Assembly (NCBI GenBank): GCA_942159475.1
Contig: OW804096.1
Span: 139,923,442-139,987,441, forward strand
Reading direction: 5' to 3'
Length of the DNA stretch: 64,000 nucleotides
Source: Sthenelais limicola
Taxonomy: Eukaryota > Annelida > Polychaeta > Phyllodocida > Sigalionidae
Under the pieces are notes generated by a model. It was not told the DNA's origin, did no database searches, and worked only from the letters and a program-made list of their open reading frames with translations. Shown here in pieces: positions 4,101 to 47,100 of the stretch; position 1 is the stretch's first letter, and the number at the start of each line of letters is the position of its first letter. The translations under genes were made by a program, and so were the position numbers.

Positions 4101-7100
4101 TGGCGAGTCTCTGTAAGTTAAGTTGCAAAAGATTTTTCAAATATTTTTCAATGGGATCACATTTCTACACTGTGAATATACTGTACTCCATCATTTTGTA
4201 TAGTTAACTACTGCTTGCAATGTATTGCAATGAATTTTGTATATGGGTCAGATTTTCAGAAAATGTACAATTGGCAGCTGTCTACATTTAGTAATTTCTG
4301 CTAAATTAGGCAGTAATTTGGCCAATACTAGGTAAATTCGAGTATATTCGGCATTGGATTGATTCTAGCAATTTGTTTGACTATTGTTAAACTATGTTAT
4401 TATCTCTTTAAATCCTTTCTGGTATGTCTGGAAGATCTGTGTGCAGAAGACATTATTTCCTGTCGTGCAATTTTGGAAATAAAAGCTACTATAGATATAT
4501 ATATACAATATATTCAATAAAAATAAATTTGTTAGATGTATTTATGATACTAGCAGCGCTATAAGCACCCCAAAGATGACTGAAGCTGTGTGTAAAATTA
4601 CATCATTATTATTATTATTACAAGTTAAACCGTTCTAAGATCTTCCCTTACTACATTTCCCAACGTGGGAAAAAGCGTTGTGAAGGACGCGTTGCTAACG
4701 TTGCATAAATTAGGAGACATTGCATCTCACTTTAGGGCCCATATTGCGTCCTGTACACCATTGGTTTTGACAAAGAATTTTCGAAAAAATGTCCCGGTTG
4801 TTTTCACTTGTAATCCAACTTCTACTTGCTAGATTTACAAAATGAAAACAGATTCTAAGAGGGGAGTCTTCAACCTATATGTCGCATCCTTTTTATATTT
4901 CTACAAAGATTAGATCATTTTGATTCAGCCTTTCGAACATGGCCAAAAAACTACAGCGAGGTAGTCCATAAGCCTACAAACAATCTCGAGGACAATTTGG
5001 CCCTTTCTCAAAGATTACTCAGCTTACAAATAAATAGTTATATCCTTCACACATTAACATATGAAACATGGTTTTAAAGCTCTTTTTCTCAGCTTGCCGA
5101 TATGACCAATTAAAGATGATCGTAATTACGCGTACTGACGGAAATTTAGTTTAGGGATGGAAGTAGTTCCTGTATCAATATGCCGCAAGGAAACTAACAA
5201 CAACTTGTTAACATTTGGACAATGAGTTCTGTATCCTCAAAGAGATTCCGCCATCAAAATCAATTTTGATGAGTTAATAATTAACAGGATTGTTAGTTTG
5301 GGTTTAAAACGGATGTAGTACTTCTTTAATTATCACTTTTTTAACAACTTTATTATTATCATTAAGATCTTATAATATAATAACATATAGTGAAACTGTC
5401 CACAGGTCAAACTTTGCAAGGGGCGCAGACAGACCTGGATGATGTTGACTTCAAGGAGCCTATACAGGAGTTTGTGCGTAGACACAGAAGGTTGCTGGCA
5501 ATCTGTATCCCTGCCAGTATTGTGCAGATTATCTGGTGGGCAGTCTTCATCAGATACGATCTCTTCCATCTCTTCCCTGACCGGTATGAGCTGGTGGTGA
5601 CCATGGTGATCGCCTCTGTATTAGCTGGTAGGTTATTATTATTATTATTATTATTACTAAATACTCATTAGTAGATTCCTTAGTATTAAGGAATCTTTGT
5701 ATTAGGCGATGGCGTTAACTTCATTATTCATTTGGAATATTGTTATTATCTTCTATCATTTTTCATTTTTGCCCACCAGCAGACCTTAGCATAAGACAGA
5801 CACTGGCATAACCTTACACTGTATATATACTATTTTATGATGATCCTTCTGAAAGATTTAGGATATAAACATGGCAAATTCTGGGAAAGTTAAACAATAA
5901 TTTCCATGCTCAGTCTACCTTCTTGAAAAGGCGCCGAGCTTTGAAAAGGCACTTGGTACCCTTGACTTAATTAGCCCGGGGGTGGGGGGGATGCTTATTC
6001 AAGGAAATACGGTATATGTGATTAGAAACCTTGTGCAACTACACCACCTACGCTAAGGAGAGCACAGAAACAGATGATGTTAGGCACATTATCATAGTGT
6101 TAGCATTAGCATAGCATTTTTGTGTAGTTCACAACCTCCCTATAATATGTTCTCTGCATGTTACTATGAACACCTTGTATATCTTACATGTAAAATGGTG
6201 TCAAGGCTATAGATGTCTGTTGTGGCATTTGGCTGGATACTGCTTCCTGTAGTAGTCTGTCCATAATTCTGATTTATTGCCTTTAAACTATTGACTGTTT
6301 TCATTATTCTAGGATTAACCAGTATAGGAGCAAGTGCAGTTGCCTTCCCAGTGATGACCCTCATCCTGCAAGTCACTCCAGTTGTGGCCAGAGACTTTGG
6401 CATAGTGATGCAGGCTATGGGTCTCAGTTGTGCAGTCTGCACAGTGACCATCATGGGGGTCCGGATGGAGTGGAACGCCATCGTTTTCTGCAGCTTGGGA
6501 GGAGCATTCGGTGTCATCTTTGGCCTTGAGGTGGTGGAACACCGAATGTCCCCAGCACTGAAAAAGATGATCTTTGCAAGTTTCTGGTTCTCGTTTGCAT
6601 TTGCTTTGTTCCTGCTGAACCGGAACCGTGGAAGAAGAACGTTCTCACGGATATATCTCATGAACTGGTGGAAAGCATTAGTTCTGATAATTTGTGGTGT
6701 GGTTGGGGGATTGTTTGGCTCCTTCGTTGGATCTGGTATTGATATATGCAGCCTCAGCATACTTACACTGTTTTTTAGGCTGAGTGAGAAGTCTGCTACT
6801 CCAACTTCACTGGCTATCATTGCTTCTAACTCTATTGTTGCAGTGATTTGGCGACAAGGATTGCAGAGTGGCATCTCTTTAGAAACTTGGCAGTATGTTC
6901 TAGTTACTGCTGAAGTGGGGTTTGTTGGGGCACCGATTGGCTCCCTCATTGGCGCCCACTTTCATCGACAAGTGATAGCCTGGTGCATTATCTTCATGGT
7001 AACTCTCACCCTCATTACATCCTTTACACTAGTTCCTCAAACACCTGTACTAGTTGGAGTATCCATTGGAGTTATCGCCCTTGGTGCAATTGTCTTTGCA

Positions 7101-7232
7101 TTGCTTACATATGCAGGGCAGAAGATCATGTTGCATATTGAATCAAAAGCAAAGGAACATGGAACTACCAAAACATTGCAAGAAGGAACGGAGAAGCCAC
7201 AAGAAAAAATCAGTATTGTTTCTCATCTTTAG
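1127..7232 (+). CDS. TSUP (TauE/SafE-like) membrane transporter, copy 1, complete four-exon gene
   Basis: Exons 1127-1177, 3589-3670, 5406-5627 and 6313-7232 join to a 424-aa protein. All introns are GT/AG (donors gtgagt, gtatga, gtaggt) and the phases 0, 1, 1 agree; each split codon at the two phase-1 junctions gives Gly. Residues 1-73 are a soluble N-terminus with a Trp/Cys-rich patch (about 36-43). Hydrophobic segments follow at about 74-93, 107-137, 145-165, 172-190, 204-220, 238-290 (two or more), 311-333, 338-358 and 362-386, then a polar tail. The two TSUP half-repeats are visible: SIGASAVAFP (122-131) with ARDFGIVMQAMG (144-155), and GGLFGSFVGSGID (250-262) with TPTSLAIIASNS (281-292). 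The TSUP family exports or imports sulfite, sulfoacetate or related anions in bacteria; the substrate here is unknown. The start is the ATG of exon 1, conserved in copy 2. Exons 1 and 2 were found by phase and by conservation between copies, so they are less certain than exons 3 and 4. An AATAAA lies at 7425, inside a MITE. Confidence 0.82.
1372..1526. mobile_element. Foldback element with AGAATGGAAC arms
   Basis: ATAAATAgagAGAATGGAAC..GCCGACAATAA at the left is mirrored at the right; the inside ATTTATTGGAC also pairs. Related copies: 56235-56388, a shortened one at 2411-2490 and a doubtful one at 41761-41905. Confidence 0.6.
1527..2410. other. Intron 1 of transporter copy 1, middle part
   Basis: Contains a C/A-rich stretch (1690-1930). 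No gene or clear repeat seen. Confidence 0.5.
2411..2490. mobile_element. Shortened copy of the AGAATGGAAC foldback element
   Basis: Reads AAATAAATAGAGGGAATGAA..TTTATTGGACGAGAG..GAGTTCCATACACTATTTAT: both outer arms with the loop deleted. Confidence 0.5.
3068..3224 (+). mobile_element. GGGTCAGA MITE, subfamily A, fragment
   Basis: Forward copy without its first ~10 bp and without the right third. It lies in intron 1 of transporter copy 1. Subfamily A has the core GGCATTGCATTGATTCTAGC. Confidence 0.7.
3754..3986 (-). mobile_element. GGGTCAGA MITE, subfamily A, reverse
   Basis: Full-length 233-bp copy with ATGT duplicated (3750-3753, 3987-3990). It is absent from the homologous place in copy 2 near 60990, which shows the empty site. 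It lies in intron 2 of transporter copy 1. Confidence 0.9.
4245..4395 (+). mobile_element. GGGTCAGA MITE, subfamily A, 3'-truncated
   Basis: The left TIR and about 150 bp of an A element are clear; the right end is missing or unrecognisable. Confidence 0.75.
5628..6312. other. Intron 3 of transporter copy 1
   Basis: Starts with GTAGGT and (TTA)n, ends TTCATTATTCTAG. A short G run at 5982-5990. Nothing else recognised. Confidence 0.7.
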
Positions 7233-9331: not shown

Positions 9332-10011
9332 ACCATCTATTAATCCACGCCCTATGAAACATACTTTGCTCGCTATATCTGAGTATATTCTCATGGAAAA
9401 TGGCACGATGGAGGGTTCAGCCCAAACTGCACCTTTCTAACTGCTGATGTGTGTAATAATGTATTGTATTCATTCAATAAGCCTGTCTGGTTATGTTGAA
9501 CTGTATTTTGTCCATCATTTGTCATATCTAGATGATAGATATAAAATAACCTTGTTCCTTCTAAAAGTTCTACTGTAGAGAAATAAAGACTAAATATCTC
9601 CTAATAACGATTTTTGCTAATGAGAGAGACAAGTCAAGACTAGGTGTGACTATTTCGGCTTTCAGAGAAAGAGTGATTCATTTATTCCATTAGATCTTAC
9701 ATTACAACTCAGACAATACAAATGATTAGTTCTTCGAAGCATGTATATCTCCAGGGACACCTTCTGACTAAGGTATGTCCGGGGGCCTGAGTATTTTTTT
9801 TATTATTATTTCCATTACGGCCAAGACAATTAAATAATGTGTATATGTAAATACACTACGTCCATCATGGATATCCTAGAGTGTTGCCTGTTACATATCT
9901 GATTGAAATAATGTTTATTGAAAAATAGCTACTAAGCATCGACAATTAGACATATCATTAATCAAAAAACCACATTCAGCATTTTCAGCCGATATCTTAT
10001 CAAGCACATAT

Positions 10012-10246
10012 GGGTCAGATTTTCAGAAAATGTACAATTCACCTTCACCAATCATCTCAAATAACCAACATTTAAGACAATAATGAGTTTCAAAATGCAG
10101 TTTAACATCACAGAACTGATACTTTAAATCAATGCGATCCCAAATACACTGAGATATTCCCGATATTCTTCATTTCTTAGCCTAATTTGAGAGAATTTCC
10201 TAAATGTGTAGATCTGCCAATTGTACATTTTCTGAAAATCTGACCC
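10012..10246 (-). mobile_element. GGGTCAGA MITE, subfamily C, reverse
   Basis: 235 bp with ATAT on both sides. Subfamily C is marked by GATTTAAAGTATCAGTTCTG (here on the minus strand). Confidence 0.88.
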
Positions 10247-19071: not shown

Positions 19072-19560
19072 AAGTGTAAGATCAATCGTCACCCTGGAGG
19101 ATGTCCCTTTCTCAACTGAGTGCCTTCAGACTGGCCCATCCTGGTCTCATTCTTGAAGAAAAATTGTACATTGACATGGGGTCCAGGCTGTAGTCCAGCT
19201 TGTACATCGGCTGTCTGGTATGTGGAAATGACTACATGTGTTCTAACATACCATTCATAGTGGTCCTGTTCATATAAAGGTATACACACTGGCATCACAA
19301 CATGGAATAATGCTATCAATTGGCAGACTGTGCCCGAAATCCAAATCTCTATAGTCTGTCCGAAAAGTAGTGGTCAATATGTATGGCCCATTGAGTCAGC
19401 ACTGAGAGTACAAATCAGTCCTGAGGCCGATACGACGCCCATATCAGGCCTCAGGCTGATATGGAATGAGTAAAGTTCCCTAACGATAATAGTATTATTG
19501 CATATAAATGACTTGCAAAATTAAACAAAATAATGGAATATGTTTATTAGAGTACTATAA
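19072..19560. other. No gene recognised
   Basis: Includes a GGCC/TGATAT inverted motif near 19420-19460 (CTGAGGCCGATA.. / ..AGGCCTCAGG). No ORF of note. Confidence 0.4.
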
Positions 19561-19998
19561 AGGTGCGATTCCACTGGATCACTTGTATATGTGCTCATGG
19601 CTCGCTCTTGCTGCGCTTATTCATAGTGCGCTTGTCATTCGCTCTTCATCTGCTAATATATTTAGCACAATACAAGCGCAGAGCGATTCTACTGGTCTGC
19701 TTATTTCCAGTATGAAATCTATAGCAAATGCGTTTGTGCGCTCTCACTGCGCTCTTAGTCCACTAGTTTAACTAGTTTAAAGAGCGTTGTGTTGCTGCAC
19801 TCAAATCAAACACAGCAGATATGAGCACAACGTCAAAAAGAAACGCAAATAGCAGTTTTTAAGAGCGTATAGAGAGCGTAGTTACCGAATCTATTAGACC
19901 GCTCTGGTTTTGCTCTGCCTCCGCTTGTTAGGCGCTCTGGGAAAATAAAAGAGCAGATGAAGAGCGGTCTAAAAGAGCGAGCCAGTGGAATCGTACCT
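19561..19998 (+). mobile_element. PIF/Harbinger-like MITE, copy 2
   Basis: 438 bp, TIR AGGTGCGATTCCACTGG, TAA on both sides. The right TAA (19999-20001) is also the left flank of the next element. Confidence 0.77.
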
Positions 19999-20001
19999 TA
20001 A

Positions 20002-20438
20002 GGCTGCGATTCCACTGGCTTGCTCTTTAGGTCTGCTCATGGCCCGCTCTTTTTATTTCCCAGAGTGCATAACAAGCGGAGGCAGAGCGAACCCAGAGCG
20101 GTCTTATAGAATCGGTGAATGCGCTCTCTATGCGGTCTTAAAATTTGAGGTTGGCGCTTCTTTTTGACACTGCGCTAATATCTGACCTGTTTAATTGGAG
20201 TGCAACTACACACCGCTCTTTCTGCCTGTTAAAGTAGTGGACCAAGAGCGCAGTCAGAGCGGACCAAGTGATTTACATTTGATTTCATAAGGAAACAAGC
20301 GAACCAGTAGAATCGCTCTGCATTGGTTTAGCGTTAAAAATATTAGCGGATGAAGAGCGAATGACAAGCGCACTATAAACAAGCACAGCAAGAGCGAGCC
20401 ATGAGCACATATATAAGTGAACCAGTGGAATCGGACCT
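20002..20438 (-). mobile_element. PIF/Harbinger-like MITE, copy 3, inverted
   Basis: 437 bp, inverted relative to the element at 19561 and separated from it only by TAA; TAA follows on the right. Together the two make a palindrome of almost 880 bp. Confidence 0.77.
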
Positions 20439-20532
20439 TAAGTCAATTGAATGACAAACAGTAAGTAAAACAACAGTGCAGAATTATATAATTTTGCGTT
20501 CTAAAATATAGTCCTAGCCCTCAATTTATATA

Positions 20533-30413: not shown

Positions 30414-30446
30414 AGCAATTGTACATTTGTAGAAAATCTGACCCAT
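30414..30446 (+). mobile_element. GGGTCAGA MITE right-end fragment
   Basis: Only the right TIR (AATTGTACATTT..AATCTGACCC) followed by ATAT. It lies just upstream of the LINE. Confidence 0.6.
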
Positions 30447-30499
30447 ATGTCTACAATACTACACATTTTATTGACCCATGGTCAATATAGGACAACTAA

Positions 30500-31467
30500 T
30501 CTTCTCTTTTTTTTCAGGTTTGGATAACCATCAGGGCTCAAGGATAAGCTGAACTGAACATAAACCTTCAGGGATTCTTCTGAAATTAAGTTCAACCCTT
30601 GTAAAGCTGTGGTTTTCTCATATCAAACATCGGAAATTCTTGGACTCTCAAAATCAACGTGGTTCGCGCCATTTTGCCTAGTAGCAGCTAATCCTCGGAT
30701 TATCGTCCCCATCGGAGAAATCAAAACCATCTCAGCCTGACGGACTAGAACACTCAGGACAAAGCAAAATAAGAACAAAACTGCATCACAAACGGATGGA
30801 TTCTGTGCAACAGGACTGATAATTCCTATAACTATCCCTTCAAGTACGAGCAAATGGATTAACGCAGGTTCGCTCCTTCTCACAAATGGGAAGCTCGCCG
30901 GCTGACAACTCTAGCTCCAGACAAAAGGATTGAAAAGGGAACAAAACCCAGAAATCTCGCCTGACAAGGTTTGAAACCAAAGTGAAACTGTTTGTGTGTA
31001 AATGATTAGTAAACCAACTTTGACATTATAACCCCGCATAAGACTTAGTTACGATAAAGTTAATCTTTAATGCAAAGCATACCCTCTGTGTCGCCATCTG
31101 GCGAGTTAGTTGAAAAACAAAAATCAGTATAGGAAGTTGTGAACTCTCTCACTAGAGGTCGTGCCAAGCAGGAACAACACGAATTCCCTCCGTGCCGCTT
31201 GTAACCTTAAAACTGAGAAAGAACAATATCTGACGATCAAGTAATACAGGGAATCCATAAAAATCAGAAAAGAACTCTCAAATCCAAGGAGAACATGGTC
31301 TAAGAAGATCCAAATACCTCGCAATAGAAAAAGGCTAAGGGCAAATCACACCAAGCGGAAGTACTAGCCGCCATTGTACCGGAAGAGAGAAAAAGGTAAA
31401 ACATCCAGTGTATACGTACGAACCTATACCCGACAAACCGGGTGCAACACGGATTTGCGCCAAGGAT
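30500..31467 (+). other. Probable LINE 5' UTR
   Basis: About 970 bp before ORF1, less AT-rich than the surroundings, with no long plus-strand ORF. It presumably carries the internal promoter. The left edge is arbitrary. Short minus-strand ORFs here (30623-30883, 31124-31324) show no recognisable domain. Confidence 0.4.
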
Positions 31468-33084
31468 ATGTCTGCCACCACCGCTAACGGCGACAACGGT
31501 AACACCACCGCCAGCGACAACGGTAACACTAAAAAGAGACCTCTTGACGCTTCCCCCGAAGCTAATAAATCCCTGGCTAAACTCCCCAAGCATAGTGATA
31601 GAGAATACGAAGCTAAAGACATGGCTGGCGGATCCACTATGGAGGTGGATAACACAAACAAGGTCCCAAATAAGGTCTCAAATGAACAGAACGCCAGTAA
31701 GTCCAAGGAAAAAGCTGCTGAATCCGGGCTTAAAACCTTACTCGCAAAAATGTCCCAAGAGAGGCAGAGGAGTAGCCAACAGGAACAGCAAGATTTTGAA
31801 GAACTCAAAAAAAGAATCGAGGAACTCAAGGCTATTAGAGATGAAGTGAAGGAGGTACAATCTGACACTAACATCCTTAAACAAGATATGTCTGATGTGA
31901 AAGATTATAACAGTCAGAGGGACATCGCCATGGGCGGCTTTGATGACAGACTAAGATTCCAAGAAGAGGAGATGAAGGCAGTCAGAGGCGAATTGGCTTC
32001 CACATCGACTCCTAAAGACACAGACTGCATCAAACAAAAGAGAGATGAACAAGAAAAGGACAAGGAGTTTATTCTTCAAGAAACTATCAAATTGGAGAGG
32101 AACTTACTTGTTTTAGGCATCAAGTCGAGAGTCGAAGAGTCAAACAATGATCTATTCGACAAGATTAACAAGGTAATCACAGAATACCTAATGCTTCATA
32201 ACATAACAGTGAGAAGTGTTATAAGGATCGGTAAGAAAGATGATGTGCCCCTAAAAATCGAATTAGCATCTGTTGAACAGGCCAACATGGTTTATGACGC
32301 CAGACTGCGACTCAAACAGTTCGACGAAGAGAATACACCCAAAGGCAAGGGAATGAACATCCGAAAGGATACACCATTCATCGTCCGCCAAAGACTGGCA
32401 AAAGCGAGGGCTATATGTGCAGCAGCAAGAGCAAAACACTATGAGGTAGAGCAATTTGGCACCAACATTAAAGTAAATGGCATTCACTACCGGCACGACC
32501 AGTTGGACGGCGTCCCAACCGAATTGCTCCTATCCCAGCTCTCAAAGAGGCAAGACGACAACACAGTAGTCTTCTTCTCGTCTGACAACCCATTGTCCAA
32601 CCATTTCAATTCTCCATTCTTCCTTGACTGCCAAAGATTTGACCACGTGGAGCAATACCTTTTCTACCAAAAGGCCAAGATCGTCGGCGACCCTGTAAAA
32701 CCTGCACTGGCCTTAAAAACAAAAGACCCAGTGGAATGTAAACGGTTTATGGGAAATGTGTTTGACGAGAAACACAGATGGCCTATCCATAGACAAGAAG
32801 TCCTACTCAAGGCGCTGCGGGCAAAAGCAAGACACAACGAGGTAGTCAGAGATTATCTCCTTTCGACCGGTGATAGAGTTATTGGGGAAGCATCCCCAAC
32901 CAACAAAACATGGGGGATTGGTCTAGGCCTAGACAACCCTAATGTTCTGGATGTGAGCATATGGCCCTCAGACGGCAACCTGGTCGGTAAAATGTGGGCA
33001 AAGGTCCGCGACGAAATTAGAAGGGATACTCCACAAAATGCCGTCGAGGAATCATCCATGGAATCTAGTGAAGGGCATAATTAG
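31468..33084 (+). CDS. LINE ORF1 protein with C-terminal NADAR domain
   Basis: 538 aa from the first ATG; the frame is open 20 codons further upstream but only with a GTG. Residues 1-85 are low-complexity, Asn/Thr/Gly rich, with a basic KKRP at 22-25. Residues ~95-205 are Glu/Lys/Gln-rich and predicted coiled coil, the usual trimerisation part of LINE ORF1. Residues ~210-282 look like the RRM-like domain (RNLLVLGI at 211-218, RIGKKDDVPLKIEL at 253-266) and ~285-350 like the C-terminal RNA-binding domain. Residues 366-520 match NADAR (YbiA/DUF1768): FFSSDNPLSN (369-378), Glu395 in VEQYL, RW (437-438), KALRAKA (448-454), STGDRVIGEASP (466-477) with the conserved Glu474, WGIG (482-485), NLVGKMW (504-510) and VRDEI (513-517). 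NADAR enzymes cleave N-glycosidic bonds, including ADP-ribose on guanine of DNA in DarT1/NADAR systems. The domain here looks catalytically complete, but activity is inferred. Its stop TAG is in frame with ORF2. Confidence 0.88.
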   Translation: MSATTANGDNGNTTASDNGNTKKRPLDASPEANKSLAKLPKHSDREYEAKDMAGGSTMEVDNTNKVPNKVSNEQNASKSKEKAAESGLKTLLAKMSQERQRSSQQEQQDFEELKKRIEELKAIRDEVKEVQSDTNILKQDMSDVKDYNSQRDIAMGGFDDRLRFQEEEMKAVRGELASTSTPKDTDCIKQKRDEQEKDKEFILQETIKLERNLLVLGIKSRVEESNNDLFDKINKVITEYLMLHNITVRSVIRIGKKDDVPLKIELASVEQANMVYDARLRLKQFDEENTPKGKGMNIRKDTPFIVRQRLAKARAICAAARAKHYEVEQFGTNIKVNGIHYRHDQLDGVPTELLLSQLSKRQDDNTVVFFSSDNPLSNHFNSPFFLDCQRFDHVEQYLFYQKAKIVGDPVKPALALKTKDPVECKRFMGNVFDEKHRWPIHRQEVLLKALRAKARHNEVVRDYLLSTGDRVIGEASPTNKTWGIGLGLDNPNVLDVSIWPSDGNLVGKMWAKVRDEIRRDTPQNAVEESSMESSEGHN

Positions 33085-33132
33085 TGGATAAGGCAGCAAG
33101 AAGTGAATATTCGTGTGCTTGTATTGTTAAAA

Positions 33133-36100
33133 ATGCAGCAAACCGATATTCAAAACTTCGGCGCCTCCACCAAGCTAGTGTCTCTTAATATAAATGGTTT
33201 AAATAACGCCACCAAAAGAAAAGCCATATTTTTACAGTTTAATCAGTTACAGGACACCATAGTGGCTCTACAGGAAACCCACTCAGTGAAGGCAAAAGAA
33301 AAAATATGGCAATCCCAATGGGGAGGGCAACTCCTTTTTGCTCATGGTACCTCTGCATCGAGAGGAATCATGTTTCTTGTTCCAAAAAGCCTGAAAAAGT
33401 GTATTGATTCTTATGAAGCTGACCCAAATGGTAGATGGCTGCGTCTTACATTAAATATAAATAACTCGGTCTTTTGTATTCTAAGTGTGTACGCCCCAAA
33501 CAGTGACAAACCAAAGGAACAGACGGCCTTCCTAAATGAGATGAAAAACATTTTAGGTCTAATCAAATATGACAGATTAATTGTTCTAGGTGATCTAAAT
33601 GCAGACATCACGTACAAACCGTCCAGCATTGCAAGCATAAAATTGGTCGATTTCATCAATGAACTAGACTTAGATGATATTGTCAGCGCAAGAAGTCAAG
33701 GCCTCCCGAACATTACCTGGTCAAGACTACAACAAAACTCCAGACTCGACTATATTTTTGTATCTAATAACATGTCTAACAGAGTTCACAAATGCGAAAT
33801 TGTTTCTAGCATTCACTCTGATCATAATGAAGTTAGAATAGATATGTATATGGGCGTGGCCGCCAGAGGAAGGGGGTACTGGAAGTTTAACACCAAGCTC
33901 TTACTTGACGATACCTTTGTGAATGGTGTAGAAAGAGAATATGAACGCACTAATAATGAAGCGCTCGGTTCTAAAGTTAAATGGGAATTCTTTAAGCTTA
34001 GAGTCAGGGAACTCGCAATCTCCAGATGTTGTGAGATAGCCAAATGCAGAAAACTTAAGAATGCTATGTTAAAAGAAAAACTTGATGTATTAGATAAAAA
34101 AAGAAGGTTAACTCTCGAAGAAGCGAATGAACGAAAAGCTATTTCTCAAGAATTAAGGGAGATTGAAATGGTGAGGGCAGAAGGAGCATTAATAAGATCT
34201 AAAGCCAAATGGGCCACTGAGGGAGAGAAACCCTCCAAATACTTTTGTGCATTGGAAAAGTTTAAAGCTGGCAAGAAGGTGATTTCAATTCTTAATGTAA
34301 ATGGTTCTATCACTTCTAAACAAAGCGAAATATTGGACGAAGGTAAAAATTACTACACTTCTCTCTACAAAAAAGTGCCTGTTTGTGACATAGCTGGTGA
34401 AGAATTTTGTAACCCTGTTCACGCCGTCCAACTTGGTGATGAAGACAACAAAATATTATGTAGAGAAATAACTCATGACAAAGTCGAAAAAGTGTTAAAG
34501 ACTTTCAAGAAAAACAAATCGCCTGGGTGCGACGGTTACACTGTTGAATTTTACTTGTACTTTTGGCACTTGATCAAACCCCTTTTTATGTGTATGTTAG
34601 AAGCTTGTCTAATCGACGGCGAAATGACCGATAATCAGAAAAGGGGCATCATAAGCGTCATTCCGAAAAAGGATAATGATCTACTTCTGATAAAAAATTG
34701 GCGTCCAATTACCCTTCTTAATCTAGATTATAAACTCATCTCGAAAACATTATCAAATAGACTGGCATCCTCCCTCCCTAACATTATAAATGAGGACCAG
34801 CTCGGTTTTGTTAAAGAACGATTTATAGGCACAGCGATCAGAAAGATCGATGATATTCATTCTCTCCTAGAATATAAGAAAGAGACTGGGATTATAGCGT
34901 CTGTGGATTTCTCCAAGGCGTTTGACTCCGTAGATTGGTCATTTATCAGAAAAGCGCTAGAGTCGCACAATGTTCATAATACCTTTATTGAGTGGATCGA
35001 GACTCTCCTCCAGGACTCAAAAGCGACCTTTACTAATAACGGTTTCTCCTCGCAATGGTTTCCAGTTGAGAAAGGTGTCAAACAAGGGGACCCAATATCA
35101 ACATCCCTGTTTTTAATTGCAGTAGAGAAGCTCGCCGAGCAGTTAAGAATTGATGAAAACATACAAGGTATTAGGCTCCAAGAAAACAATGCGAAAATTG
35201 TACAATTCGCAGACGACCTTACATTGACTGTTAGAAATGAATTCTCCTTACTAACCGCGGTAAGAAAAATGGACAGATTCGCAGAAGCATCTGGCTTACA
35301 TATTAACCCCGGGAAATCCAAAGGTTTTTTAATAGGCGGAATTACAATCTCAAATAGAGATCTATTACAGTTTGACTGGACAAACAAGATGAAAGTCTTA
35401 GGCGTCACTTTGCTTAACCCTAGGAACGAAAAAGAAATGTACAAGATAAATAGTGAAAGTCTCTTGGCAAAGGTAAAGAGTACAATTAATGAGTGGAGAA
35501 ATAGATATTTAACCGTTAAGGGTAGAATACTGATTTGTAATGTGTTCTTACTTCCTGTTTTTCAACACGCCCTATCTTGTATACATATGGGTGAGGATTT
35601 ACTCAAAGCGATTAATGATGTTATTCTGAACTTTGTATATGGGAAAAAACACCACAGTATTAGTGCAAACTTCATGGCACAAAAACCAGAAAATGGTGGG
35701 TTAGGTTTAAGGTTAATACATGAGATTTACGACACAAATAGAATCATGTGGACGCAGAGGATTCTTCATAAAAGACACAGTTCTTGGTTCAAAGCGCTAG
35801 AAGCCTTTCACGAAAGAGATATTGAAAATGTGTTTTTATGTAGGTATATGCCTAAACAGTTCTTAAATGAGTTTTACAAAGATATATTCAAGGTATGGAA
35901 TAAATTCTATTTCAGCAACAAACCGGAGAATGTGAATCAAATTCTCAGAGAAAGAATCTGGGCAAACAGATTTATCAAAGAAAAAGGCCAGATGTTTTAC
36001 TGGCAGGAATGGATAGATCATGGTATTACTGCAGTCGGAGACCTCTTCAATGAGAAGAGGAACTTTATGTCCTTGCAGGAGATAGCAAAAAACTATCAGT

Positions 36101-36936
36101 TCCATCCATCGTTTTATTCCAGGAAATCTTTAAGAAACGCCATTCCTGGTGAATGGACTAGATTGATTAAGCTAAATGAACCTGTTCCCGCAGATGATTC
36201 GGTTGATATAAAAATTGGTAAAACCAATGTCAACTTGGTAGGGTTGACCGCCAAAAAAGTGTATGACCAAATGATTAGTAATAAGAAAACGAAAGACGAA
36301 AAGCTTGACAAATGGAAGGACTTATTGGGACTAACCCAAAGACAATTCAATGAAATTGATTGGAAAGTCATATTCAAACGTCCGTACTTGTCTTCAACAG
36401 AGTCAAGGCTTCACGTTTTCCAATATAAACTTTTACATGGCACAACTGCATGCAATGGTTATTTAGCGCAAATTCGGGTAAAAACACATCCTAAGTGTGA
36501 CTTCTGTCCTGGTGAAGACAATATTGTTCACTTTCTCGTAGAGTGTCCCAGAACCAAATCGCTATGGTCCGAAATACTTGATTGGATATATAACTCAGGT
36601 TATTTAAATGACGGTAAAAATGGTGACATTCTGTTTAAAAGAAAAAATGGAAGAATCTCTGTCAGGCCAATAGATATAATCTTTGGCATTGAGCAACCTA
36701 ATGTATCGTCCAAAATTGTCAACTGGTTAATTCTCCAAACCAAGTCTTTTATTTACAGACAGAAGTTATTCGACAATGGTAGAATTGATATGTTAACCAC
36801 CTTGTATGAGTTAAAGATGAGATGCAGAGTGGTGTTATACTCTTTCAGGATTCAAATGGTCGGCGATAGAGAAAAATCTCTATGGAAGAGAGTACAGGGG
36901 GACATTGAAGAGCTAATCTCAATACACAAAGGTTGA
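33133..36936 (+). CDS. LINE ORF2: endonuclease-reverse transcriptase
   Basis: 1267 aa from the first ATG. Residues 14-235 are an exonuclease-endonuclease-phosphatase (AP-type) domain with Asn21 (LNINGL), Glu48 (QETH), YAPN (120-123), Asp154/Asn156 (GDLN), Asp206 (SRLDYIF) and Asp230-His231 (SDHN): the nick-making enzyme for target-primed reverse transcription. The reverse transcriptase spans about 455-740: GCDGYTVEF, NWRPITLLN, motif A DFSKAFDSVD (Asp592), motif B KGVKQGDPIS and motif C FADD (692-695). A long thumb/C-terminal region follows, with a CCHC knuckle C1122-x2-C-x7-H-x4-C1138 typical of L1-type ORF2. No stop or frameshift interrupts the ORF. It lies 48 nt after the ORF1 stop in the same frame; reinitiation or stop readthrough could supply it. 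Confidence 0.93.
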   Translation: MQQTDIQNFGASTKLVSLNINGLNNATKRKAIFLQFNQLQDTIVALQETHSVKAKEKIWQSQWGGQLLFAHGTSASRGIMFLVPKSLKKCIDSYEADPNGRWLRLTLNINNSVFCILSVYAPNSDKPKEQTAFLNEMKNILGLIKYDRLIVLGDLNADITYKPSSIASIKLVDFINELDLDDIVSARSQGLPNITWSRLQQNSRLDYIFVSNNMSNRVHKCEIVSSIHSDHNEVRIDMYMGVAARGRGYWKFNTKLLLDDTFVNGVEREYERTNNEALGSKVKWEFFKLRVRELAISRCCEIAKCRKLKNAMLKEKLDVLDKKRRLTLEEANERKAISQELREIEMVRAEGALIRSKAKWATEGEKPSKYFCALEKFKAGKKVISILNVNGSITSKQSEILDEGKNYYTSLYKKVPVCDIAGEEFCNPVHAVQLGDEDNKILCREITHDKVEKVLKTFKKNKSPGCDGYTVEFYLYFWHLIKPLFMCMLEACLIDGEMTDNQKRGIISVIPKKDNDLLLIKNWRPITLLNLDYKLISKTLSNRLASSLPNIINEDQLGFVKERFIGTAIRKIDDIHSLLEYKKETGIIASVDFSKAFDSVDWSFIRKALESHNVHNTFIEWIETLLQDSKATFTNNGFSSQWFPVEKGVKQGDPISTSLFLIAVEKLAEQLRIDENIQGIRLQENNAKIVQFADDLTLTVRNEFSLLTAVRKMDRFAEASGLHINPGKSKGFLIGGITISNRDLLQFDWTNKMKVLGVTLLNPRNEKEMYKINSESLLAKVKSTINEWRNRYLTVKGRILICNVFLLPVFQHALSCIHMGEDLLKAINDVILNFVYGKKHHSISANFMAQKPENGGLGLRLIHEIYDTNRIMWTQRILHKRHSSWFKALEAFHERDIENVFLCRYMPKQFLNEFYKDIFKVWNKFYFSNKPENVNQILRERIWANRFIKEKGQMFYWQEWIDHGITAVGDLFNEKRNFMSLQEIAKNYQFHPSFYSRKSLRNAIPGEWTRLIKLNEPVPADDSVDIKIGKTNVNLVGLTAKKVYDQMISNKKTKDEKLDKWKDLLGLTQRQFNEIDWKVIFKRPYLSSTESRLHVFQYKLLHGTTACNGYLAQIRVKTHPKCDFCPGEDNIVHFLVECPRTKSLWSEILDWIYNSGYLNDGKNGDILFKRKNGRISVRPIDIIFGIEQPNVSSKIVNWLILQTKSFIYRQKLFDNGRIDMLTTLYELKMRCRVVLYSFRIQMVGDREKSLWKRVQGDIEELISIHKG

Positions 36937-37140
36937 ACCTTCCAGCTCACTCGCATTGTGACTCCTCTCGCTAAAGAGAGACTGATGTTGTATTCCTTGC
37001 TTATTCCACTGTCTGATTTATTCTCCTTACCATGTCTACATCCCCTAAGAATTATGTCCCCTTTTTTGTTTCTATTGCATAAACTACCCATTCGCATAAC
37101 CATGTCTTAGCATTGTAACAGCCCAGATGGCAGGCAATTG

Positions 37141-37172
37141 AATAAAGTCTGTCGCAAAAACAAAAAAAAAAA
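37141..37172 (+). terminator. LINE polyadenylation signal and A-rich tail
   Basis: AATAAA at 37141 is followed after about 12 bp by an A-rich tail interrupted by single C residues. This marks the 3' end of the element. A similar 3' end (AATAAAGTCxGT then A-rich) lies at 15775-15806. Confidence 0.7.
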
Positions 37173-38003
37173 TATACAATTGGTCTTTTTGTTTAACAAA
37201 ATAAACAAACAATTTCATAATATGCAGTTGTGTATTTATTAAGTTGGATACATTAACAAGGGAAAATAAACTATGCTTGTGAAGATGTACATGTATTAGA
37301 TCATCTCCATGAGATTGACCTTGACCTTGAGGAATTATCTGAAAATAGTGATCAATTTTTTTCCTGAAAATTATTTCCAAGTATTTTTGTTGATAAAATC
37401 ACATTTCTTTGTAAAGCATACTTTGTGAAACTTCTAGAATAATTATGTGCTTTGATGTTTGGGTAAATGTTCACTTAAAATCAAATGTGCTTCATTTTTT
37501 CAACAATCAATATTTCTATGAATATTGATACGATTGGTTTGTGAATGGTGTCAAATGGAAGCTCTTTAACAGGCCTTTATTCCATTTTATAATTGTTAAT
37601 GGCTAAAATCAATAGTTTTTCTTCTGTTGTCATTCAATTTTCAAAAACTTTACACTTTGTGAAAAAAGGCATTTTTTTTAATTTTTTGAAAATTCATATA
37701 AAATGTAATATCTATTGCACACTAAAAAGGTTGATATCAAATGAAAGCTGATGATCTCCTCTACAAATGATTTTACACATGCATAAGGCTGTGATAAATT
37801 TCCTGGTAGTTATAAGAAGAAATATCCAAGAATTGACATAAAACGCCCCCTGGTGGTAGGAAAGAGCAATATTTCAGGGTGGTAACCAGCATTTTCGGAC
37901 TCAGCACCCTCACTTTAGTATAAAACCACCGTATACCAAGCATTAACAAAAAATGCCTCTAGAAATTTTTTAAGACATATAATATGTAGTTTGGCACCAG
38001 TCT
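37173..38003. other. No gene recognised
   Basis: AT-rich 3' flank of the LINE; nothing seen. Confidence 0.5.
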
Positions 38004-38110
38004 AAAGTACAAAGATGGATATTACGCTAAATTTACAAAGATGGATATTACGCTAAAGTACAAAGATGGATATTACGCTAAAGTACAAAGATGGATATTA
38101 CGCTAAATTT
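38004..38110. repeat. 25-bp tandem repeat, four units
   Basis: CAAAGATGGATATTACGCTA recurs at 38010, 38036, 38061 and 38086. Confidence 0.9.
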
Positions 38111-38199
38111 ATCAAATAGTTGATATATTTTTTAGATCTGGTCCGTACCAGTGGGGTTTCGAGCATGTGAATTCTTATGGCAATATCATGTTCCATATA

Positions 38200-39207: not shown

Positions 39208-39652
39208 TCAGGCCCCTGGGATGTGCTTCAGGAGTTGGTAATCAATACGTCACAGTTGCCTTGGGGACAATTCACATGACATTGACAGGACATTGACATG
39301 ACATTGACATTATCAAGGGATGCCCTAGCCGAAACATCAACCATATACCTTGCTCCTGTATATATGCATGAATAGGTAACCTGAATGGGTTGTATGTACA
39401 GCTAGAGGTGCCCTTGTACCCTTCCTGCTACATTTGGTTAAATATTTAAGTTGAGTAGGGTGTGTTTCGAACCAGGGTTCATTCGAGAACATAAAGAAAG
39501 TGGATTGGATTTTGTCCTCCACTTGATTAATACTAATATATATATACATATATATAATATATTACCACGCGAGTTCATCATTTGACTAAAATACAATGTA
39601 TTACATAGCCAATGAGACTCCGTTTATAAATAAATCCATTTGGGTTGTATGT

Positions 39653-39892
39653 GGGTCAGATTTTCAGAAAATGCACAATTGGCAGCTGTAAACATTTATA
39701 TTAGTAATTTCTGCTAAATTAGGCAGTAATTTGGCCAATACAAGGTCAATTCGAGTATATTCGGCATTGCATTGATTTTAGCAATCGGTTTGGTTAGGTT
39801 AAACTGTGTTTTGAATTTTATTTTTGTCAGAAATTTGGGTTATTTGAGAAGATTGGCGAAGTTAATTTGTACATTTTCTGAAAATCTGACCC
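39653..39892 (+). mobile_element. GGGTCAGA MITE, subfamily A, forward
   Basis: 240 bp, duplication ATGT on both sides. Confidence 0.92.
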
Positions 39893-40167
39893 ATGTAGTT
39901 GTTTCATTCAATTGGTTGCAGCAAATCCATTCAAACAGTACAGAATATCCTATAGAGAGACAGACTATCTCAAGTATAGATGTACATAAATCCCATAGTG
40001 GATATCATCCTTAAGTGAAAAGTCTATGTTTCACATTCCATGTCAGCCGCGCGGATTATAAAATCCAAAATGATGTGACAACACCTTCATACCAAACTCC
40101 AATTTGTTATCTCAAAATATAAGTTATACTGGTACAAAGTATTTATATTCGTGGCATGAATATAACA

Positions 40168-44178: not shown

Positions 44179-47100
44179 ATGGATAAGCAGAATTTGTCAG
44201 CAGCGAATGATATACGGGAGAATGGCAAGGTGAGTAGTTTGACAAACTGAATACATGGTGTTTAAGACACTTATCAACACGGAACAAGCTACAGAAATTG
44301 AACAAAAAACATCTGTAGAACGCATATGGGTCAGATTTTCTAAAAATGTACAATTCGCCTTCTACATTCCTATCAAATAATCCACATTAAAGACAAAAAT
44401 TAGCTCCAAAATGCAGTTTAACATAACAGAACAGATACTTTAAATCAATGCGACACCAAATATACTCAGATATACCCGGTATTCATCATTTTTCACCCTA
44501 ATCTACCAGAAGTTCCTAAATGTGTAGAGCTGCCAATTGTACATTTTCTGAAGATCTGACCCATATATCAAGCGAACTGACTCCTAGCTGGGGCCTGTTT
44601 CATAAACAATTCAAGTTAATTCCGTCACTTGTTTATCAATATTTGAATCTAAATGTCTCGAGCAGCACTCAAAGTCTATTTATTTTTTGCGACCAATTTT
44701 ATTCGGGTTATTATGTTGGCTTTGGCCACACAATTTGGCTCGGGTCTATGAAGTGGTTTCTATCACTTTCTCGTCATGTAGCATATCTCATGGTCTGTTA
44801 AATTTCTCATTATACTCATCACATAACATCTTAATTATCTCTTGTTGTAAAATTATAATTTATTTATTTCTTCTTATTCCTGTTGCTAAGTTGTAAACGA
44901 ACATAATGTTAGACCCTGCCCACACATAGCCGATTTGTCCCCCGATTGACCCCCGATTTTGACCAAACTCGGGGGGCAATCGGGAGGCAAATCGGCTATG
45001 TGTGGGCAGGGTTTAAAATCAAGAATCATTAAGGCACTCGGCGGAAGACCTGACTAATCAGAAAAACTGTTTAATCAGACACTGAACAACCTTTGTAATA
45101 ACATGAAATAGAAGAATTCTTGATTTGAATTGAATATGAAAGCCCAGAATGTTCACTTAATTTTTAAAAGAAATATTAGAAAAAAAAGAAAATAGAAAAA
45201 GAAAAGTGTAAGAAAATGTGAACAAAATGTGAACAAGAGGAAAGTGTATGAACGAGATTTAAACGAGATCTCATCAGAACTGATGCCTATGGGCGCCGCC
45301 ATTTTGTATTCCTTCCTCAAGCAGAGTTTAGTCAAGAAAAATAGTCAAAGAGGAATTCCAAAACCTGGAAAAGAAGGCGTTACTCTTGTTATGTAACATT
45401 ACGTAACATTGTGTAACCTCATTATATTTATATTAATTATTAATTATCACACATTTATTATATTACCTCATTACTAAAATCGCTAATTATACTTAGCTAC
45501 CCAGTACTGTGCAAGTCTACTTATTCATACTAAGCCATAGGTATTACATAAGGGCTCCGCCCCCTACTCCTTACCCACATCCTGGAGGAAGATATGTAGT
45601 TGAGCTTAGTTGGATTCTAGTTCATTAAATCAGTTGCTTCGCTCTTCTCATGAAGACCATGCGTTTGTTTGTATCCTTCCATGACACCTTAACACTGGCA
45701 GACAACCCGCTCTATCTTGGAATCCTAAAATCTCACAGCTTGAAGCGATTTCTTTCATTAATATGGAGGAATTATTGGACATTTTAATAAAGTTTGAGCT
45801 ATGGAAGATGCAGTCTCACGAAGACCAAACGTTTGTTTGTATTCTTCCATCACACCTTAACACTCTCTACTTATACATGGGAAGCCAGATCCCGCATAGG
45901 GATTGGTTAATAAGGTTCAATTAGCTAGTAATTAATATTTACAGAAGGTATAGTGTTATCATTCTAGTTTTAAATGAGTTTGTGAAGCAATGATTTACAT
46001 CAGAAGATATACCTATGCTTCGTGGATGTTGTAATTTATGACAAATCACAACCGGTCAGGATTATTTGTGACAAGATACCTAATTAAGTGATTAGATATG
46101 GAGAGATATATACCACATGGTTAACCAATATTATTTTGCGTATGAGTGTGTATAAGTATGAGTGTTTTATGCTTCCAGATAAGAAAAAGGTGGAGCTAGT
46201 TATAGTTATCAACTGGTTATAAGTTACCATGGATCGGTTTAATTTTTATATTAAAAAGCGTTGAAATGTTTAGTACTGTCCTTGATGTGAACTGTATAAA
46301 TCGTGATTATCCTAGCTGTAACTTCATTATATTATGATCATTATCAAAAAATAACAAGAGAAGAGCAAATGTATTTCTCGATGGTAAATTGCTCTGGTGA
46401 GAGGCGAGATTTTCTTGATAGATTAAATAGAGATCGTTTTGTAAAAAAAAAAAAAAAAAAAACTACAAAAAAACATACGATCATAAAGCTATGAATGTAA
46501 GTGCCTGGGGAACGGGGACGCTTCATTACCTAATTATTCGATTAGTCTAGGGGGTTATTATAGCTCCGGGGCTGGTCCCGATTTCTGGATAAATATCAAT
46601 ATATATTGAGTTGTGAGGAGGTTATACCTCGCTGGGCTCTAGCTATGAGAATTAAGGCTGACGCACACATGGCCGATTTGGCTCCCTATAGGCCCACGAT
46701 TTGGGTCTCCTCATGAATCTTAGGATTTGATTTCAAATCCTGGTTTATGTTTTTGAAATAAGATAAACCATGGTTTGAAATGAAATCTTAGGACTCACGA
46801 GGAGACCCAAATCGTGGGGCTATAAGGAGCCAAATCGGCCATGTGTGCGCCAGCCTTAACTCTAGCAGAGCAAAGGTCTTCATAGAGAACTAAATAGGCT
46901 TCTTTATACAATAAAAATATTAACATGAATATGAAATTTTCAGCAATGATGACCACCTCCTTTAGCTATTCGAAACTTACTCAAATGTACTCATATTTTG
47001 ACTTATATTAGACTAAATTCATCAATATTCTGCTGCTGTTTTATGTTTATACACCAATTTGAAGTAGAATAACAATTTAATTATACAACGGCCCATTAGT

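Follow-up and report, generated by a model that had tools for sequence, protein, structure and literature searches.

NADARs of four types (DarT1-linked, sigma70-linked, YbiA, and phage) all hydrolyze guanosine-linked ADP-ribose in DNA in vitro, but they differ in cells, where the YbiA and phage proteins gave no rescue from DarT1 (PMC11125620). The substrate of a NADAR is therefore not readable from its family, and specialists call the physiological roles of these proteins outside DarT operons, animals included, unclear (PMC11125620). In the oomycete NADAR solved with ADP-ribose (8bau), the ligand contacts described include E43, K50, R79, W89, R93, E125, and W133, with D130 acting via a water molecule (PMC11543638). 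Among animals, nematodes have SNA-3, whose NADAR domains are required for spliced-leader trans-splicing and have no known substrate (PMC9303266), and six edible clams possess an activity that ADP-ribosylates DNA on guanine N2 (PMC11209040), so that a guanine-N2 ADP-ribosyl substrate is possible in an animal.

Retrotransposons with NADAR domains have also been described. In several Tx1 LINE families of Crassostrea gigas, ORF1 appears to include NADAR domains of the YbiA family, and in Ectocarpus a lineage of Gypsy elements carries a NADAR domain in Pol (PMC12477816). Since that report describes Tx1 ORF1s with NADAR, the combination is already known, and the belief expressed in the initial annotation of our locus that no such LINE had been described does not hold. 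This was the only relevant report found in a literature search that combined NADAR with retrotransposon, non-LTR, or ORF1, the outcome of which depends on the wording.

Here we describe a LINE copy in a window of 64,000 nucleotides, the whole stretch of DNA analyzed. The host genome comprises 1.13 Gb in 161 contigs, and nine contigs of 68 to 162 Mb make up ∼1127 of its 1131 Mb, which suggests nine chromosomes. The element is built as follows.

30488-37170, + strand: non-LTR retrotransposon (LINE) copy of ∼6.7 kb, delimited by alignment with six near-full-length genomic copies
31468-33084, + strand: ORF1, 538 aa, open from its first in-frame ATG (31468)
31687-32136, + strand: predicted long coiled coil of ORF1, residues ∼74-223, from AlphaFold2 of the whole ORF1 and heptad periodicity
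32152-32547, + strand: likely RNA-binding part of ORF1, RRM-like and C-terminal-domain-like, residues ∼229-360
32554-33027, + strand: NADAR domain of ORF1, residues 363-520
33133-36936, + strand: ORF2, 1267 aa with its ATG at 33133, with endonuclease (PF03372), reverse transcriptase (PF00078), and a C-terminal zinc-binding motif
36937-37170, + strand: 3' UTR with an A-rich tail at its end, the 3' end being common to six copies

By sequence, we place the element among LINEs of the L1/Tx1 group, with an AP-type endonuclease and a reverse transcriptase nearest to that of LINE-1 ORF2p. ORF2 matched PF03372 and PF00078, with PF13966 below its cutoff, and in a comparison restricted to elements with solved structures its best PDB match was LINE-1 ORF2p (E=2e-79), R2 proteins following at 2.2e-21 or weaker. 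Insertion into a fixed target sequence is a trait of many, not all, Tx1 families. This trait is not seen here, where six full-length copies have unlike flanks; the element may still belong to Tx1.

The genome contains six near-full-length sisters of this copy, which show 98.7 to 99.3% identity and all align from 30488 to 37169-37175; of a seventh, two pieces align (96.6 and 97.7%) within the region retrieved. The window copy is ∼42 nt shorter at its 5' end than the six sisters, all of which have those 42 nt in common; beyond them, the sister flanks share one 23-nt match in two copies and nothing else. Target site duplications of 11 to 15 nt surround five of the six sisters, at target sites that are unlike, and none longer than 6 nt was found at the ends of the window copy. 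ORF2 is open to its end in all seven copies tested, the window included, and a stop interrupts the ORF1 match of one sister among the six (C7:32549015). Activity of the family is recent, and its insertion in these copies is not site-specific.

Short elements with inverted-repeat ends like TTGTACATTTTCTGAAAATCTGACCC are numerous in the window (30416-30446; 39652-39893, ∼240 bp; 44314-44355; 10006-10039), and one end of such an element (30416-30446) lies directly upstream of the LINE. An imperfect palindrome of ∼880 bp, with 82% identity to its own reverse complement, occupies 19560-20439, and a unit in four overlapping tandem copies spaced by 25 to 26 nt occupies 38002-38111. At 6291-7232 there is an uninterrupted 313-codon open frame with a match to the TauE/SafE sulfite exporter family (E=8e-17). 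Ten other open frames of the window gave no Pfam match at E≤0.01, and Rfam and tRNA scans of the window gave no match.

In the AlphaFold2 model of the whole ORF1, helices span residues 74-177 and 182-223, and heptad periodicity reached a z of up to 3.6 against shuffles. A structure search with the middle of ORF1 ranked LINE-1 ORF1p rows under unrelated ACT-like rows. The initial annotation had placed the NADAR domain after a coiled coil and an RNA-binding part; this position is borne out, with the RNA-binding assignment graded as likely.

We regard it as practically certain that the C-terminal domain of ORF1 is a NADAR. Its match to PF08719 scores 76.2 bits against a cutoff of 35.1 and covers profile positions 10-163 of 163, in agreement with the complete domain originally claimed, and the equivalog-domain model TIGR02464 scores 79.0 bits against a cutoff of 73.7, a match that gives a name by score and not a tested activity. 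Structure prediction, which had been suggested as a check of the fold, returned the five core helices and small flanking sheets of the YbiA fold, so that the model depicts, with high model confidence, a complete domain of NADAR fold. By alignment, five residues of the ADP-ribose pocket are kept in the window (Glu395, Lys402, Trp438, Glu474, and Trp482), and these are given below together with the residue at the position of D130.

32650-32652, + strand: Glu395, aligned with E43 of 8bau, a ribose contact (PMC11543638)
32671-32673, + strand: Lys402, aligned with K50 of 8bau, a phosphate and adenine contact (PMC11543638)
32779-32781, + strand: Trp438, corresponding to W89 of 8bau, invariant in a 28-row NADAR alignment
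32887-32889, + strand: Glu474, corresponding to E125 of 8bau, the glutamate marking the YbiA subfamily (PMC11543638), invariant in the 28-row alignment
32902-32904, + strand: Asn479, at the position of D130 of 8bau, Asp in most NADARs of the 28-row alignment and Asn, Ser, or Asp among LINE families
32911-32913, + strand: Trp482, aligned with W133 of 8bau

The 28 rows comprise the window, a metagenome ORF1 (P0002), 20 of the 33 loci from viral and genome scans, and six phage or plasmid matches. Ten of the 11 columns that are invariant in the 26 non-LINE rows are kept in the window, and 10 in P0002; for columns conserved at ≥90%, the window keeps 15 of 22 and P0002 keeps 20. The window departs at Gly428, Phe454, Leu506, Leu510, and Met511, in columns kept in at least 25 of the 26 other NADARs. 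Asp occupies the 479 position in 25 of the 26 non-LINE NADARs, where the window has Asn; P0002 has Asp there, but Phe in place of Trp482. Three of the loci (L002, L013, and L019, from a viral contig and bacterial assemblies) join a Macro domain to the NADAR domain, and in L034 and L039 the NADAR genes of Burkholderia/Paraburkholderia plasmids adjoin a gene annotated as a DNA repair exonuclease.

Its last strand has glutamate, instead of Asp or His, where 8bau has E125, and the domain can thereby be assigned from its sequence to the YbiA subfamily (PMC11543638). The Asp that would identify a YbiA-type riboflavin-intermediate N-glycosidase at 479 is replaced in the window by Asn479. By our reading of the Asp-x-x-Trp spacing, the 479 position would correspond to D343 in SNA-3, which was changed jointly with two other residues in the temperature-sensitive NADAR 2 (PMC9303266), and from that study we infer that Asp at 479 is critical in YbiA. 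A DarT1-type antitoxin was considered and rejected: Glu474 stands where Asp would be expected, and the adjoining frame is ORF2, with no linked DarT.

The initial annotation had proposed a check for other copies and named a one-off chimera as the outcome that would overturn its proposal. Such a chimera is excluded, the domain being present in many copies and families of the genome. The ORF1-led genome search used a 558-aa query with the domain at 383-540 and scored the best 78 of 5265 candidates; it listed at least 80 places, 76 of which extend past query residue 500. The other four listed are pieces of elements, three of them with a neighboring listed place that has the domain and the fourth (C1:161003520, ending at 449) with a separate NADAR match directly downstream. 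In the NADAR-led search, the best 150 of 3958 candidates were scored, all at E<1e-53 and many in open frames of 500 to 714 codons. Because both lists favor domain-bearing copies and score only the best candidates, LINE ORF1s lacking the domain may also occur in this genome. Besides the window, 59 loci (52 unique places) were compared, and 58 have an ORF1-matching open frame of at least 300 codons. The domain is a standing part of the ORF1 build, in dozens of open copies and several diverged families.

Residues were counted over the 51 unique rows that reach the domain, with the window included and seven duplicate loci dropped. Glu395 and Trp438 are present in 51/51 and Glu474 and Trp482 in 50/51. 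Residue 402 is Lys in 40/51 and Arg in 11/51; in the E. coli C7 NADAR, a Lys-to-Arg change at this position kept hydrolysis in vitro and lost DarT1 rescue (PMC11543638). Residue 479 is Asn in 18/51, Ser in 20/51, and Asp in 13/51.

For pairs at a synonymous distance of 0.15 to 1.0 in the domain, which share sequences and are not independent, the median dN/dS was 0.049 for NADAR (36 pairs), 0.058 for residues 206-362 (35 pairs), and 0.165 for residues 1-205 (30 pairs). In the nine closest rows, these parts gave pN/pS values of 0.122, 0.071, and 0.145, respectively. Synonymous sites are saturated between the window and the ten diverged rows listed, with a domain dN of 0.10 to 0.34, and the window is 41.8% (64/153) identical to P0002 in the domain and 22.3% (47/211) in the rest. 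The dN/dS values, the saturation with low dN, and the P0002 identity thus point to purifying selection on NADAR as strong as that on the preceding part of ORF1. We are highly confident that the domain has a selected function, and, since many related copies retain it, it probably helps the element.

The initial annotation had offered selection or recent acquisition as alternatives, and only the former survives. Recent capture was rejected on the saturated synonymous sites against the ten diverged rows and on the grouping of the LINE domains with P0002 in one clade, and weakly on matching GC3: 0.513 in the domain and 0.490 and 0.506 in the other two parts of ORF1; for ORF2, GC3 is 0.395 in its first piece, taken in frame, and GC as a whole is 0.36 to 0.39 in its pieces. 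The tree that bears on this has 43 rows, namely 14 LINE representatives at <95% identity chosen from 49 usable domains, P0002, two PDB chains, and 26 others from bacteria, phages, viral contigs, and plasmids, with no animal chromosomal NADAR among them. LINE domains and P0002 form one clade at 97/94. This clade lies in the half of the tree (100/99) to which 8bau and several proteins from phages and plasmids belong; E. coli YbiA is outside that half. A single acquisition by an old LINE lineage would be the simplest reading of this tree. Asn and Ser at 479 look derived, because Asp is common to the Asp479 families, nearly all outgroups, and P0002.

Independent capture of the domain in P0002 was not supported, the NADARs pairing at 94/92 in a tree of 30 rows and at 97/94 in that of 43. 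The N-terminal parts of the window ORF1 and P0002 are not significantly alike (E of 0.10 with and 0.24 without the low-complexity filter; z of 2.5 over 1000 shuffles, some of which scored higher), so that a common origin of the entire ORF1 is argued from layout and from the clade of the NADARs; for an 18-residue stretch beyond the coil, E was 0.034. P0002 was the sole relative among the best 8000 candidates scored in each of the protein searches with ORF1 and with the query A1. Among 195 candidates, none matched the NADAR domain by itself at E≤0.001. Viral contigs yielded no relative when scanned with ORF2, P0002, or ORF1 and one phage-type NADAR when scanned with A1; a scan of genome contigs with A1 found none.

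From the domain, its pocket, and the selection on it, we infer an activity, a substrate, and a benefit. ORF1 oligomers would coat the element RNA, and NADAR would therefore ride on the RNP, where it could cleave the N-glycosidic bond of base-linked ADP-ribose (guanine in known NADARs). The substrate may be the element RNA, its cDNA, or nicked target DNA, and the benefit may be that a readable template is kept, or a host modification undone, during target-primed reverse transcription. We tentatively interpret the domain as an ADP-ribosyl hydrolase acting on nucleic acid, which we judge a little short of evenly balanced. Stripping of ADP-ribose against a host defense, as the initial annotation proposed, would fit the retained pocket. 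The fuller proposal is a long-lived, large LINE lineage whose RNP would include an ADP-ribosyl hydrolase for nucleic acids, encoded by the element and serving as counter-defense against a guanine-ADP-ribosylating host enzyme, with the changes at 479 marking shifting substrates; taken as a whole, we consider it doubtful.

The change at 479 is, from the sequences compared, the main point against an ordinary hydrolase, and it is because of this change that we retain, as unlikely, a role as a reader that binds ADP-ribose on chromatin, on proteins, or at nicks in DNA, thereby tethering the RNP where the host ADP-ribosylates, with hydrolysis weak or lost. This would resemble the chromatin-reader domains of other retrotransposons, such as those acquired by stramenopile Gypsy elements (PMC12477816), and Asn or Ser at 479 in 38/51 rows, with the ADP-ribose contacts (Glu395, Lys/Arg402, Trp438, Glu474, and Trp482) staying in place, is consistent with it. 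However, Asp479 is present in 13/51 unique rows, and 50/51 keep Glu474, which a pure reader would not require; hydrolysis by the E. coli C7 NADAR depends on the corresponding residue (PMC11543638). The unlike target sites of the six full-length copies neither help nor exclude a broad chromatin tether.

Alternatively, the domain might have as its substrates small ADP-ribose or NAD-derived molecules, or the ends of RNAs, a role proposed for NADARs of viruses, and so blunt an immune signal or tidy the element RNA. Large DNA viruses and phages do have NADARs, as do the polyproteins of RNA viruses (PMC9503650; also our structure matches), and the Ectocarpus authors suggested processing of RNA intermediates (PMC12477816), but fusion to a likely nucleic-acid-binding protein points to a nucleic-acid substrate, and we find such a role improbable. 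Still less probable to us is a structural or RNA-contact role in ORF1p with no link to ADP-ribose. Selection by itself is no proof of catalysis, and a NADAR protein for which no substrate is known, SNA-3, belongs to an RNA complex (PMC9303266), but few positions of the LINE domain are as constrained as those of the pocket, whereas core positions such as 454 and 511 vary. That the domain is a leftover of a captured gene, functionless in the element, is barely credible given the median dN/dS of 0.049 and its conservation across diverged families. A nucleic-acid hydrolase is the reading we favor. A LINE lineage with an apparently competent NADAR under strong selection offers a tractable system for the roles of these domains, and residue 479 provides natural variants; the question at stake is whether ADP-ribosylation of nucleic acids restrains transposons.

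Human LINE-1 ORF1p is comparable in layout, since the window ORF1 too has a predicted long coiled coil, followed by what are likely an RRM and a C-terminal domain; human LINE-1 ORF2p can be aligned with ORF2 of the window over residues 24-870 of a 1277-aa frame (E=2e-79). The oomycete NADAR 8bau is a free-standing protein, with D130 where the window has Asn479 (PMC11543638) and with a longer insert before the last helix than the window domain. E. coli YbiA (2b3w) falls in the other half of the tree (100/99), and its Asp corresponds to Asn479. The Ectocarpus Gypsy element is also a retrotransposon with NADAR, but it is an LTR element with the domain elsewhere in its proteins. Like the window element, the Tx1 LINEs of Crassostrea gigas appear to have NADAR in ORF1, a likeness by description. 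That report treats the domain in one sentence and a supplementary alignment, with no selection or copy-number data in the passages concerned (PMC12477816). What is new relative to those passages is the evidence on selection, the finding that the pocket is conserved across families while residue 479 changes, the model of the structure, and the scale of the association in one genome.
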